Of a stretch of 64,000 nt of DNA, positions 36,783 to 42,087 are shown in pieces. This DNA comes from Bacteroidales bacterium (GTDB taxonomy: Bacteria > Bacteroidota > Bacteroidia > Bacteroidales > FEN-979): NCBI GenBank assembly GCA_028706295.1, contig JAQWBQ010000002.1, positions 1-64,000 of the forward strand. Direction: 5' to 3'. Numbering within the stretch: position 1 is the stretch's first letter; each line of letters opens with the position of its first letter. The notes beneath the pieces are model-generated. The model worked only from the letters and a program-made list of their open reading frames with translations. It searched no databases and was not told where the DNA came from. The position numbers were made by a program, and so were the translations under genes.

Positions 36783-37101
36783 GATGAAATTCTGATGTTA
36801 ATGGATGAATATTCAAAATCAATGTTGAATGCGCCAAATATAGTGATTTTCAGGGTTAAAAATCATTCCTGAAGAATTTCGGTTTTGCCCTCTTTTCAAT
36901 ATCTTTGCTAAGTAAATACCAGGTTATTAATTATTCTGATACAGAGCGAAATATTTAACCACTGGTATGCTGGAATGGAAATCTCCATGAATGATAAAGC
37001 ATGGTGTTTGAGACCAATCTGTTTAAATTTGAGGATTAAGATGTTCTCATTTTCAGGCAACTATTTTCTTAAGTTCGTGTCTTTACCTTACTGGTTCCCG
37101 G

Positions 37102-37662
37102 ATGCTCGAGGATGATTCCATACTTGAGGGGTGCATAGCGGGATCACGCAGCGCCCAGAGCGCCCTTTATCGGAAATACAGCCCGGTAATGATGGCGGTA
37201 TGCCTGCGTTATGCCCAAAACAGGGATGAGGCTGAAGATATTTTGCAGGAAGCGTTCCTGAAAATCTTTCAGAATATCAGATCGTTCCGGAAAGAAGGAT
37301 CATTTGAAGGGTGGATGAAGCGGATTATGATCAACCATGCATTAAATTATTTCAGGAAGAATCGCCGAATGCCATTTATCGAAGACCTGGAAGCAATAAA
37401 TGAAAAGGAGGTTATGGAAAACGATGATCAGATTTCGGTTCATGCCCCGGTTTCGGCTGATACCATTATTGCCCTGATCCAGATGCTTCCTCCGGGTTAC
37501 CGTCTTGTATTCAATATGTACGTATTTGAGGAATATAGCCATAAGGAGATTTCTGAGGCTTTATTGATTTCCGAAAATACTTCAAAAACTCAGCTTCTGA
37601 AAGCCAGGAGAATGCTGAGAAAAAAGTTATATGAAAAAAATCTGGTGAAAAATACGCCTTAA
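37102..37662 (+). CDS. ECF RNA polymerase sigma factor (module 1)
   Basis: Region 2 RYAQNRDEAEDILQEAFLKIF, region 4 YSHKEISEALLISENTSKTQLLKARRMLRKKL. Confidence 0.94.
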   Translation: MLEDDSILEGCIAGSRSAQSALYRKYSPVMMAVCLRYAQNRDEAEDILQEAFLKIFQNIRSFRKEGSFEGWMKRIMINHALNYFRKNRRMPFIEDLEAINEKEVMENDDQISVHAPVSADTIIALIQMLPPGYRLVFNMYVFEEYSHKEISEALLISENTSKTQLLKARRMLRKKLYEKNLVKNTP

Positions 37663-37665
37663 TCA

Positions 37666-39111
37666 ATGAATGAAGACCTAAATAAAAAGACTGAATCCGA
37701 CAGTAATCTGGAACAGTTCATGCGGCAATCCCTGGCAGGTCACCGCGTCGAACCCAGTCCGGGTATCTGGAAGGGAATAAGCCGGAAGTTATTATGGCAC
37801 GAAATAAGTCATTTTAATTTTTCAAATGTTACCCGAAAATTGTGGATGCTGGGCGGTACCGGGCTTCTGGTCATCACGGCCGGACTCTATTTTTTATCAT
37901 CCGGATCGGGCAAAACATCCGAAACCAAAACCCTGAAGCCAACTGTGATTTCCACATCACTTCTTTCACCAGATGCCGGAATCCATGAAAAACATACAGC
38001 AGTCCTTGTGACTTCTTCTCACGTTGAAAAACAAATTAGTTCGTTATCTGATAATCGTCATAAGCAACAGAAAACCAATGAAATGGAGAAGGATCCCACG
38101 ACTTCCGATCCTTCCTTACCAATAAAAGGGAGCGCCCTGGACGATCTAAAATCAAATACTGACCATTCCGGTCACCAGGAAGTAGGGACCCTCTTCTCAG
38201 TTCCTGCCGAAAATCAACCCGTTTCGAACCTATATAAAGAAAATACTGACCTTTCCGGCTCTGCCTCCTCTATCGCGGGAATCCTCCGGCTCCCATCCCG
38301 TGGACCGGGTTTGCTTAACATTGCATTAAATCCTGATACCACAGTGATCATTCAAACGCAGGACCACCTTTTCAAAATCCATTTTCCGGGTGGCCCTTCC
38401 GGCGCTTTTTTTTCGGCATCGCTGGGTATTCAACCTGAAATCACCTTCAACCCGGGCGTATCATCTGATTCAAAATTAAATTTCTGGATCAATGGCCGTG
38501 CTTCTGTACATTTTTCCCGTTTTTCGATTTCAACAGGGATCAACGCAGGTTACTTAACCGATGAATGCAAATACCAGATCGAATATATAAGCAGGGACAG
38601 CGTCGGATTTTATACCTCTGTGGTTTCCTATGAAGTAGGCGCCGGTAATAAAATCATCTACAACACGACCACAGAAAATATCTACGACAGTGTTCAGCAT
38701 ATAGCTGATGACCGGACGCGTGCCCGGTACACTTATTTACAGGTTCCGTTGCTTGTCGGATACCGGTTGTTTCAATCCGACCTTTTAAGCCTTACTATTC
38801 ATGCCGGACCCATGGTTTCATTCCTGCTGAATTCCCGCGAACCCGAACCGGAAATCAATTACAGAAGTTTTAAAGTCATAAAAATCGAGAATCAAACCCC
38901 TCAAAGGAACGCTATCAATTGGCAGGTTTGTATAGATCTGAATCTTGAATTCCGGATGAATAAATCGCTGAGTCTCTATGTCGAACCGTCCTGCAGGTAT
39001 TTTCTCAGCGCTCCGACGAAATCCGAAAACAACAGTTCTGAGAAATCCTGGTCAACAGGTCTTGATTTAGGATTGCAGTATAAATTCGGGCAAAACTTCA
39101 AAAAGAAATGA
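37666..39111 (+). CDS. Putative dual-membrane anti-sigma factor: N-terminal cytoplasmic segment, one TM helix, S/T/P-rich linker, C-terminal outer-membrane beta-barrel
   Basis: HRVEPSPGIWKGISRKL, TM LWMLGGTGLLVITAGLYFL, ~150 aa low-complexity linker, then barrel-like GAFFSASLGIQPEITF...YTYLQVPLLVGYRL...TGLDLGLQYKFG. 3 bp after the sigma gene. Confidence 0.75.
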   Translation: MNEDLNKKTESDSNLEQFMRQSLAGHRVEPSPGIWKGISRKLLWHEISHFNFSNVTRKLWMLGGTGLLVITAGLYFLSSGSGKTSETKTLKPTVISTSLLSPDAGIHEKHTAVLVTSSHVEKQISSLSDNRHKQQKTNEMEKDPTTSDPSLPIKGSALDDLKSNTDHSGHQEVGTLFSVPAENQPVSNLYKENTDLSGSASSIAGILRLPSRGPGLLNIALNPDTTVIIQTQDHLFKIHFPGGPSGAFFSASLGIQPEITFNPGVSSDSKLNFWINGRASVHFSRFSISTGINAGYLTDECKYQIEYISRDSVGFYTSVVSYEVGAGNKIIYNTTTENIYDSVQHIADDRTRARYTYLQVPLLVGYRLFQSDLLSLTIHAGPMVSFLLNSREPEPEINYRSFKVIKIENQTPQRNAINWQVCIDLNLEFRMNKSLSLYVEPSCRYFLSAPTKSENNSSEKSWSTGLDLGLQYKFGQNFKKK

Positions 39112-40880
39112 AAAAGATTCTATTCTTGGTCCTGTTGATGGCGTGGTCCTTTGAAGGATTTCTGCAACCCATGGCCGGGGATCAACCAGGCGCTGACTGT
39201 CATGCTGATTTTTCGGCAACACCAGAACCTTCCGATCCAATGACTATTCATTTTCAGGATTTATCAACAGGCCAGATAACCAATTGGCAATGGAGTTTTG
39301 GCGACGGGGTGACATCTTCCGTTCAAAATCCCGTTCATACCTATCCTGCCGGAGGAACCTATTTTGCCTGCCTGACCATATACAACAGCGATCCCGGTTT
39401 GATTTGCCACGACATGATTTGCATTGCAATTACCATCCATGAGCCGGGTCAATGTGTTGCCGACTACCAGTATTCAACCGACAATGCCAACCGGTTGCGA
39501 GTTCTGTTTACCGATAAATCGTCAGGAACCATTGATGGATGGCACTGGGATTTTGGTGATGGTACTGTATCGGGTGAACAGAACCCGACCCATATATTTC
39601 CTGACTATGGGAAGTATAAAGTCTGCCTGACCGCTTATAATATCAGTTCACCATCAACCTGCAGCGACATCAAATGCGATTCGGTCGAGGTCAAAATTAT
39701 CGCTGATTGTCATGCCTCTTTTGATTACGTGCTCGATACCATGAACCAGGCGCCCAACACCTTCGTTTTTAATGACCGGTCGACAGGAAATGCAAATTCT
39801 TTCCAATGGACTTTTGATGATGGAGCAATCGTGAATGGACGAAATGCCGTACATCAATTTTCAACCCAGGGGAATCACAAGGTATGTCAGATAATTAGTC
39901 ACTACGAACAGGGAAATCTATTATGCAGGGACTCCTCCTGTGCCATGGTCCCGACAGCCAGCTACCTGAATCTTGGAGGTCACCTTTTTACAGGAAAATA
40001 CCCGATTAACAATCCGGTCCCTTCCGGAGATACCGGAATAGCTTACATCTACAGACTGACCGGAACTGAATTGAGGCCTTTTGATACCCTGCGTTTTACC
40101 CATCTTGGGTACTTTTCTTTTCCACAAATCCTCACCGGAAAGTACATCATCCGTGCGGAATTATCAGGGGGATCGAAAAATTATAGCAACTATTTTCCCT
40201 CCTATTATCCCGACGACTTTTTGTGGATCGGTTCACAGGGAATTACCTTGGCAGATTCCAATATTTTCAAGGCGAATATTGATATGAAACCGGTAAAAAT
40301 AATCCCGGTCGGATCCGGTATTATCAAAGGTTCAGTCATTCCTGCACTGAACGGTCAAACGAACAATCCGGTACCCGAAACAGAGGTCTTGCTTTATGGG
40401 GGTGATTTGGTACCGCTCTCTTATACTAAAACAGATAATAACGGACATTTTGAATTTACCGGCTTGCCTCTGGATGCCTATTACCTTTATGTCGAGTATC
40501 CCGGAAAATATTCAAGATTTACCGCGGTGTGGATTGATGAACAAAATCCTGTGCAGGAAGCAGTCTGTCTCGAACTTTTCGATCACAATGTTACTGGTAT
40601 TGAAGAAAAGACGGGTGCACAGATCCGGATCACCGGCCTGTTCCCCAATCCGGTTGTGTCCGACCTCCGGGTATCCATCATTGCATTCTTGCCGGGTCAT
40701 CTCAGATACCGGATCATGGATGTGACCGGCATGGTACACTATACTGGAAGTTTGGAATACCGGTCAGGATCACAATTCATTCCTTTGACGACAGGGGATA
40801 TTCCCTATGGGTTGTTTCTGATCGATTTTCAAACGCCGGAAGGGGAACGTATTGCCACCTGTAAACTGGTGAAATACTAA
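39108..40880 (+). CDS. Secreted PKD-domain protein with T9SS type A sorting domain
   Basis: Three PKD repeats (WQWSFGDGVTSSVQNPVHTY; WHWDFGDGTVSGEQNPTHIF; FQWTFDDGAIVNGRNAVHQF), two regulatory-like/Cna-B-like domains, C-terminal GLFPNPVVSDLRV...CKLVKY. ATGA overlap with preceding gene. Confidence 0.9.
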   Translation: MKKILFLVLLMAWSFEGFLQPMAGDQPGADCHADFSATPEPSDPMTIHFQDLSTGQITNWQWSFGDGVTSSVQNPVHTYPAGGTYFACLTIYNSDPGLICHDMICIAITIHEPGQCVADYQYSTDNANRLRVLFTDKSSGTIDGWHWDFGDGTVSGEQNPTHIFPDYGKYKVCLTAYNISSPSTCSDIKCDSVEVKIIADCHASFDYVLDTMNQAPNTFVFNDRSTGNANSFQWTFDDGAIVNGRNAVHQFSTQGNHKVCQIISHYEQGNLLCRDSSCAMVPTASYLNLGGHLFTGKYPINNPVPSGDTGIAYIYRLTGTELRPFDTLRFTHLGYFSFPQILTGKYIIRAELSGGSKNYSNYFPSYYPDDFLWIGSQGITLADSNIFKANIDMKPVKIIPVGSGIIKGSVIPALNGQTNNPVPETEVLLYGGDLVPLSYTKTDNNGHFEFTGLPLDAYYLYVEYPGKYSRFTAVWIDEQNPVQEAVCLELFDHNVTGIEEKTGAQIRITGLFPNPVVSDLRVSIIAFLPGHLRYRIMDVTGMVHYTGSLEYRSGSQFIPLTTGDIPYGLFLIDFQTPEGERIATCKLVKY

Positions 40881-40933: not shown

Positions 40934-41479
40934 ATGATGGATTCAGATGAGGATCTTGTATCGGGGTGCCTGAAAAAAAACGCCTCCAGTGAATTGGCGC
41001 TTTATAAAAGATTTTCACCAAAAATGTATGGAATATGCTTGCGTTACGCGGGTAATGTAATGGAAGCTGACGAAATCCTGCAGGTCGGATTCATCAGGGT
41101 GTTCAACAATCTTCACAGGTTCCGGTTTGAAGGAGCGCTCGAAGGGTGGATAAAAAAAATCATCGTAAACGCTGCCATAAGTTATTTAACAACTACCCAT
41201 AAACTTCAGAAAGAGGTTGAGCTTAAAGATTTTTACATGGAAGCAACCATTCAGGAAGATGCCCTGTCTAATTTGTCAGAGAAGGATTTATTGAAAATCA
41301 TTCAAAGCATTGCACCTGGTCACCGAACAGTTTTCAATCTTTATTTCATCGAAGGATACGAGCATAAAGAAATCGCTCAGATGCTTGGAATTTCAATCAA
41401 TACATCAAAAACTCAATTATTGAGAGCCAGGCATTCGATCATGCGGAAAATAATAAAAGAAGACCTTTTATCCCATTAG
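40934..41479 (+). CDS. ECF RNA polymerase sigma factor (module 2)
   Basis: RYAGNVMEADEILQVGFIRVFNNLHRF; YEHKEIAQMLGISINTSKTQLLRARHSIMRK; clear paralogue of 37102-37662. Confidence 0.93.
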   Translation: MMDSDEDLVSGCLKKNASSELALYKRFSPKMYGICLRYAGNVMEADEILQVGFIRVFNNLHRFRFEGALEGWIKKIIVNAAISYLTTTHKLQKEVELKDFYMEATIQEDALSNLSEKDLLKIIQSIAPGHRTVFNLYFIEGYEHKEIAQMLGISINTSKTQLLRARHSIMRKIIKEDLLSH

Positions 41480-41493
41480 TTCAATCTAAGACC

Positions 41494-42087
41494 ATGGACC
41501 AGCACGACCAACTGGAACAAAAATGCAAGGCTGCCTTTAACAATTTTGAGGTCGAGCCTCCTGCCCCTGTTTGGGATGCTGTGAACCGGGAATTACACCC
41601 TCCCCGGCGACAGTTCTCTATTTGGGAATATCTGGATCCAACTACCTTTTTTTCCAATCGTAGGGCAAGACTTACTGGAGTTTTTAGTACGGCTGCAGTG
41701 ATCCTGTTTTTCGTAACGGTCTATTTTCTTTCTCTGGATCGGCACATCATCAATGGACATGCTTATACCGGTGACCGGAGGCTTGTTTCCGGCACTGCAA
41801 TTCTTTTTACCGTTCAAGACAAATGTAAGCCCTGGGATTCGGTTCAATTCTATCGAACAGTACCGGTTGATGCCAACGGATATTTTTATTTTAAAGGTGT
41901 TGATGACGGTAGTTACTTATTGAGAATTGAACCCGGACACCAACCGGAAAATACAGACCAATTTATTGCCTCCTGGTTTGATATGCATGGTGATCCTGCC
42001 CAATCGCATGTTATCGTTATAGATGATGAAGATGTCAGGACCGATGTGCATTTAATACGGAAAGATCATCCGCAAACCGGACCCTGA
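41494..42087 (+). CDS. Putative single-pass anti-sigma partner with periplasmic Cna-B/regulatory-like domain
   Basis: FEVEPPAPVWDAVNREL (same motif as the module 1 partner), TM LTGVFSTAAVILFFVTVYFLS, then NGHAYTG...WDSVQFY...NGYFYFKGVDDGSYLLRIEPG. Confidence 0.65.
   Translation: MDQHDQLEQKCKAAFNNFEVEPPAPVWDAVNRELHPPRRQFSIWEYLDPTTFFSNRRARLTGVFSTAAVILFFVTVYFLSLDRHIINGHAYTGDRRLVSGTAILFTVQDKCKPWDSVQFYRTVPVDANGYFYFKGVDDGSYLLRIEPGHQPENTDQFIASWFDMHGDPAQSHVIVIDDEDVRTDVHLIRKDHPQTGP

Follow-up and report, generated by a model that had tools for sequence, protein, structure and literature searches.

The window considered here, the whole stretch of 64,000 nucleotides that was analysed, belongs to a 4.0 Mb Bacteroidales assembly of 149 contigs and 95.6% completeness. 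Five genes follow one another in the order sigma1, partner1, PKD protein, sigma2 and partner2, and these genes and all features of the window described below lie on the forward (+) strand. Module 1 begins with sigma1 (37102–37662), an ECF sigma factor with matches to Sigma70_r2 (1.9e-18) and Sigma70_r4_2 (5e-15). The partner1 gene (37666–39111) starts 3 bp past the end of sigma1 and encodes an anti-sigma head recognised by a head profile, a transmembrane segment, a long linker and a C-terminal outer-membrane barrel (PF13568, E 2.5e-10, residues 259–478); with an ECF sigma gene adjoining, this protein is Dma-like by plan. The third gene (39108–40880) encodes the secreted PKD protein, in which Pfam finds three PKD repeats and, at residues 417–481, a CarboxypepD_reg domain. 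Two of its regions are used below: D1 (residues 284–402; 39957–40313) and D2, of generic CarboxypepD_reg type (residues 403–500; 40314–40607). The protein ends in a putative T9SS-type tail, for which TIGR04183 gives a weak match in the window (14.8 bits against a cut-off of 23) and scores of 35.5, 38.5 and 20.5 bits in three orthologues.

Module 2 follows the PKD gene after a gap of 53 bp, in which no terminator was seen. The sequence-only reading of this DNA had placed sigma2 at 40934–41479 and partner2 at 41494–42087, and both positions are correct. Sigma2 scores above the cut-offs of Sigma70_r2 (7.7e-14), Sigma70_r4_2 (1.3e-12) and TIGR02937 (82.5 bits versus 42.9), having regions 2 and 4 but lacking region 3, as expected of an ECF sigma factor, an assignment also borne out by the tree described below; TIGR02985 stays under its cut-off for both sigma1 and sigma2. 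Partner2, of 197 aa, comprises a predicted cytoplasmic anti-sigma head (residues 1–54; 41494–41655) recognised by the head profile and containing helices 6–19 and 24–34, a transmembrane helix (residues 55–80; 41656–41733) that opens with the basic NRRAR, and a periplasmic domain (residues 81–197; 41734–42084). Its AlphaFold model (mean pLDDT 86.9) shows a pair of short helices at the N-terminus, a single transmembrane helix and a beta sandwich at residues 84–189, in agreement with the earlier description of a single-pass protein that carries no barrel.

A domain shared by partner2 and the secreted PKD protein

From an alignment by eye, it had been proposed that the sensor of module 2 and the secreted product of module 1 share a domain. 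The profile-profile comparison suggested at that time has now been run with hhalign, and it puts the similarity on firmer ground than the alignment could: with profiles built from 24–26 homologues per family, the partner2 domain and D1 align over 106 columns with a probability of 99.1 and E 1.1e-18. The family formed by residues 81–197 of partner2 and 284–402 of the PKD protein is termed DOM here. As a negative control, D2 aligns with the partner2 domain over 42 columns of common core only (89%), and D1 with D2 at 1%. The partner2–D1 score is 90.6, whereas 100 column shuffles reach 18.7 at most and the reversed profile scores 12.8; PKD-repeat and barrel profiles remain at noise level. Among single-sequence pairs with the partner2 domain, D1 was matched in 578 of 650 and D2 in 73 of 624, while BLASTP of partner2 against the PKD protein gave E 5e-5 to residues 289–367 and 7e-5 to residues 442–488, a short piece of D2. 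Moreover, a profile of either the partner2 domain or D1 recovers the other one in nearly all relatives. The D2 control and the shuffles rule out a generic CarboxypepD_reg explanation of the similarity; judged by these profiles, the partner2 DOM and D1 are homologous over their full length and represent a specific domain.

The partner2 DOM reaches 16.9 bits against PF13620 (CarboxypepD_reg), short of the gathering score of 32.3, and PF13620 matches 5 of 31 DOM members even at E 0.01. No Pfam family covers DOM well, any single model matching at most 5 of the 31 members at that threshold. The predicted fold of the partner2 DOM is prealbumin-like, with Foldseek matches to transthyretin-like and CnaB/pilin domains, and D1–D2 returned SdrD/CnaB-type domains.

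A profile search located DOM at three places in the source genome: partner2, D1 and a PKD-prime protein on contig C148, which comes after its own sigma and barrel anti-sigma. All three copies are found in ECF-sigma/anti-sigma loci; the genome has 19 Sigma70_r2 places, and at the other sigma loci examined none of the genes near the sigma gave a match to a barrel, head or DOM profile. DOM is present in 91 of 159 relatives and, phylum-wide, in 14 of 396 genomes at E 1e-8. In the sampled neighbourhoods of relatives, 97 of 112 secreted DOM genes have an ECF sigma gene at most four genes ahead of them, which is not a random-sample rate because the sample was picked by score and holds many orthologues; a barrel/head gene precedes 100 of the same 112, and 8 of the 15 without a preceding sigma are cut by the edge of the fetched stretch. 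All 27 partner2 genes in the relatives sampled follow an ECF sigma. DOM occurs almost only in sigma-linked proteins, and it is common to all such sigma/barrel/DOM triads rather than special to the pair of modules in the window.

Other observations concern the genome and its relatives more broadly. A 608-aa protein at L103:6938–8761 carries three DOM matches with no sigma nearby. Against its three DOM copies, the source genome encodes at least about 150 T9SS sorting tails; for 4 Mb, this is a very large secretome. The nearest named records in a search with the D1 alignment are Bacteroidales or Bacteroidetes MAGs, several of them from lakes; the closest, with 97% over D1, bears the title Alphaproteobacteria, which is probably a mislabelling. 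Two distant relatives carry the label Lentimicrobium.

Ancestry and distribution of module 2

In a quick tree, the sigma2 clade (30 rows, support 96) sits inside a clade (support 95) whose other members are sigma factors of complete sigma/barrel/DOM triads, drawn from ten further families of the order. The partner2 head profile likewise matches the barrel anti-sigma heads of the sister triads at 99.1%, versus 96.5% for the partner1 head. The sequence-only reading had called sigma2 a paralogue and given partner2 the same N-terminal motif as partner1: the motif is indeed common to both heads, but in the tree sigma1 is further from sigma2 than are the sigmas of other triads. The DOM of partner2 compares with DOMs of other triads at 99.2 and 99.4% and with the neighbour's D1 at 99.1%, and in the DOM tree it forms a clade of its own that does not nest within the D1 clade. 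Its grouping with the sister triads, with PKD2 (a second secreted DOM protein) or with D1 gave p-AU values of 0.85, 0.87 and 0.24, and none of these groupings is rejected. These sequence comparisons lend no support to an origin of the partner2 DOM in the D1 of its neighbour. Because sigma2 and the partner2 head are closest to complete triads of other families, the best reading of module 2 is that of a reduced triad, with DOM fused to the anti-sigma in place of the barrel.

Partner2 resembles Dma proteins in its head, which is predicted to bind the product of the adjoining ECF sigma gene. Two defining features are missing: there is no long disordered tether after the transmembrane helix, the first beta strand starting 4 residues past it, and no C-terminal outer-membrane beta-barrel, the protein matching no OMP family and ending in the beta sandwich. 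For this reason partner2 is not filed as Dma, though it may well function in the manner of a shortened Dma.

The locus is syntenic among relatives, flanked by an RND/MFP pair and by QueD-MntP-GAF-TnaA-Ptb, which makes gain and loss readable. Module 1 occurs without module 2 in several genomes, and the co-occurrence check on the two modules found module 2 standing without module 1 at the locus in nine sampled genomes; two of these, G007 and G010, yielded no DOM gene other than partner2, so that the input of sigma2 there cannot be a DOM cargo. This presence and absence rules out a dependence of module 2 on module 1. The sequence-only reading had suggested competition, mimicry or co-polymerisation of sensor and product as the signalling principle; since module 2 persists without module 1 and, in two genomes, without any other DOM gene, none of these can be obligatory. 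Nor is a private relation of this sensor to this product supported, given that the DOMs of other triads are as close, that the partner2 DOM forms its own clade and that module 2 outlives module 1.

The distribution of PKD2 is opposite to that of partner2. Among 37 tabulated genomes, PKD2 is present in all 10 without partner2 and in 5 of the 27 with it (22 lack it; Fisher 8.6e-6). This pattern is a lead only, because it rests on three independent changes (sign test p 0.25), and G028, outside the table, appears to lack both proteins. The loci displaying the pattern are L064, L066, L081, L082, L084, L087, L088, L124, L125 and L129. Two further arrangements were observed: G005 and G011 keep sigma2 with partner2 missing (L082:4013–4546 and L084:5239–5763), a sigma without its anti-sigma thus seeming to be tolerated, and G039 contains two separate sigma2/partner2 modules (L073 and L116).

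A candidate promoter element ahead of sigma1

A candidate ECF-type promoter, AGGCAACTATTTTCTTAAGTTCGTGTCT, lies at 37055–37082, about 46 bp 5' of sigma1, with the form AGGCAAC-N17-GTCT. It is conserved in syntenic relatives: all 24 syntenic regions 5' of sigma1 contain the GGCAAC half, mostly 43–47 bp before the start, and 23 of them have the full spacing. The window holds a single match, where 0.05 are expected. Of the other barrel-linked sigmas, 38 of 57 are also preceded by the GGCAAC half, and the element is found ahead of PKD-prime sigmas and directly 5' of some DOM genes, including one with no sigma nearby (L129). A TGCAAC version precedes 11 of 12 sister-clade sigmas (0.04 expected). 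The strict pattern gave 64 matches in 1.57 Mb, and one mononucleotide shuffle gave 8. Most of the 64 lie ahead of sigma genes and several of the remainder ahead of DOM genes. On this pattern of conservation, the element is likely an autoregulatory element and a regulon marker.

An ECF-type element is absent 5' of sigma2 in the window and in most relatives, and autoregulation of sigma2 is therefore not seen; the element is kept ahead of sigma2 in 5 of 6 g4 copies. A pattern search of the source genome gave 11 matches versus 6 in a backward control, so that most are chance, and only those ahead of sigma1 (C34) and on C81 look convincing. The latter, AGGCAACTTTCTTTCAAAAATATTGTCT at C81:7059–7086 (L235), is a good match 87 bp 5' of a gene for a secreted-looking protein of 1454 aa, a possible further target of sigma1.

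Signalling models and known systems

It is judged moderately probable that module 2 pairs an ECF sigma factor with an inner-membrane anti-sigma descended from a Dma-like triad, with DOM replacing tether and barrel and serving in the periplasm as the input domain. Knowledge of the Dma family (PMC13088901) and fusion logic suggest that the cytoplasmic head of partner2 would hold sigma2. The likeliest input would be a periplasmic or outer-membrane handler of DOM cargo, either the barrel of the Dma-like partner or the secretion machinery, because DOM otherwise occurs on the type IX secretion cargo of sigma/barrel triads. Engagement of DOM, loss of engagement or cleavage would then release sigma2. 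Since the gap after the PKD gene is short and free of a visible terminator, the simplest reading is that sigma1 drives module 2, probably expressing the sensor together with the DOM cargo.

Other readings have to be weighed against this one. Partner2 could act as a periplasmic decoy of type IX cargo, its DOM competing for a handler with the DOM of either the secreted neighbour or PKD2, both competitors being bound by it, so that sigma2, freed according to cargo occupancy, would report unsaturated or jammed export; such a decoy would provide direct feedback from product export to transcription. The specific domain common to partner2 and D1, the head-to-tail genes with no terminator seen between them and the opposite distribution of PKD2 are all consistent with it. 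However, the PKD2 pattern comes down to three changes and a genome that appears to lack both proteins, module 2 persists without module 1 and in two genomes without any other DOM gene, and other DOMs are closer than the neighbour's D1, which leaves this reading unlikely. Direct binding of the partner2 DOM to the cargo DOM, the co-polymerisation imagined earlier, appears more improbable still: the fold matches do include pilin-type CnaB domains, but a prealbumin fold match is generic and genomes with a single DOM copy exist. It is also possible that DOM is a folded periplasmic plug acquired from a neighbouring gene, with no role linked to the cargo, and that partner2 actually responds to membrane or proteolytic stress. 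The generic fold, the long independent evolution of the partner2 clade and the two genomes in which partner2 is the only DOM gene would fit such a plug; the near confinement of DOM to sigma-linked proteins and the conserved DOM positions kept across partner2 argue against it, and it is considered doubtful.

FecR/TonB cell-surface signalling combines an ECF sigma factor with a single-pass anti-sigma bearing a periplasmic domain. Module 2 shares this layout, but neither partner1 nor partner2 matches a FecR domain with Pfam and further models. The CarboxypepD_reg/prealbumin-like superfamily (PF13620, PF17210) resembles DOM in fold, whereas the DOM copies of the window fall below the Pfam cut-offs and share full-length features missing from the CarboxypepD_reg-type domain. 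In Porphyromonas gingivalis, the PorA-PorXY-SigP pathway likewise links a protein with a T9SS tail (CTD) to an ECF sigma (PMC7712824). That route runs through a two-component system, with no described anti-sigma carrying a cargo domain, and the domain of PorA is similar to the mannose-binding domain of FimH (PMC7712824), not to DOM.

Although the sequence-only reading knew of no described system with this arrangement, module 1 is built much like the Das/Dma systems, and the arrangement has in them a described parent (PMC13088901). The Dma plan consists of an ECF sigma, an anti-sigma with head, transmembrane segment, long linker and C-terminal barrel, and then a third operon gene (PMC13088901); module 1 and the other triads follow the same gene and domain plan, a likeness by plan. 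They differ in the third gene, here a PKD-DOM protein with a putative T9SS tail and in the Dma2 operon DUF4943 (PMC13088901), and partner2 differs in having DOM instead of tether and barrel. What is new, as read from the genomes, is a predicted anti-sigma of an uncultured Bacteroidales group with a domain that otherwise occurs almost only in secreted proteins and that replaces the outer-membrane sensor.

The promoter element permits regulon prediction in a large uncultured group. By gene-fusion logic, since the barrel has been swapped for DOM, the barrel anti-sigma and the DOM protein of the triads probably act together. The DOM protein would thus be a concrete ligand candidate for the barrel, making testable what Dma-type anti-sigmas sense.
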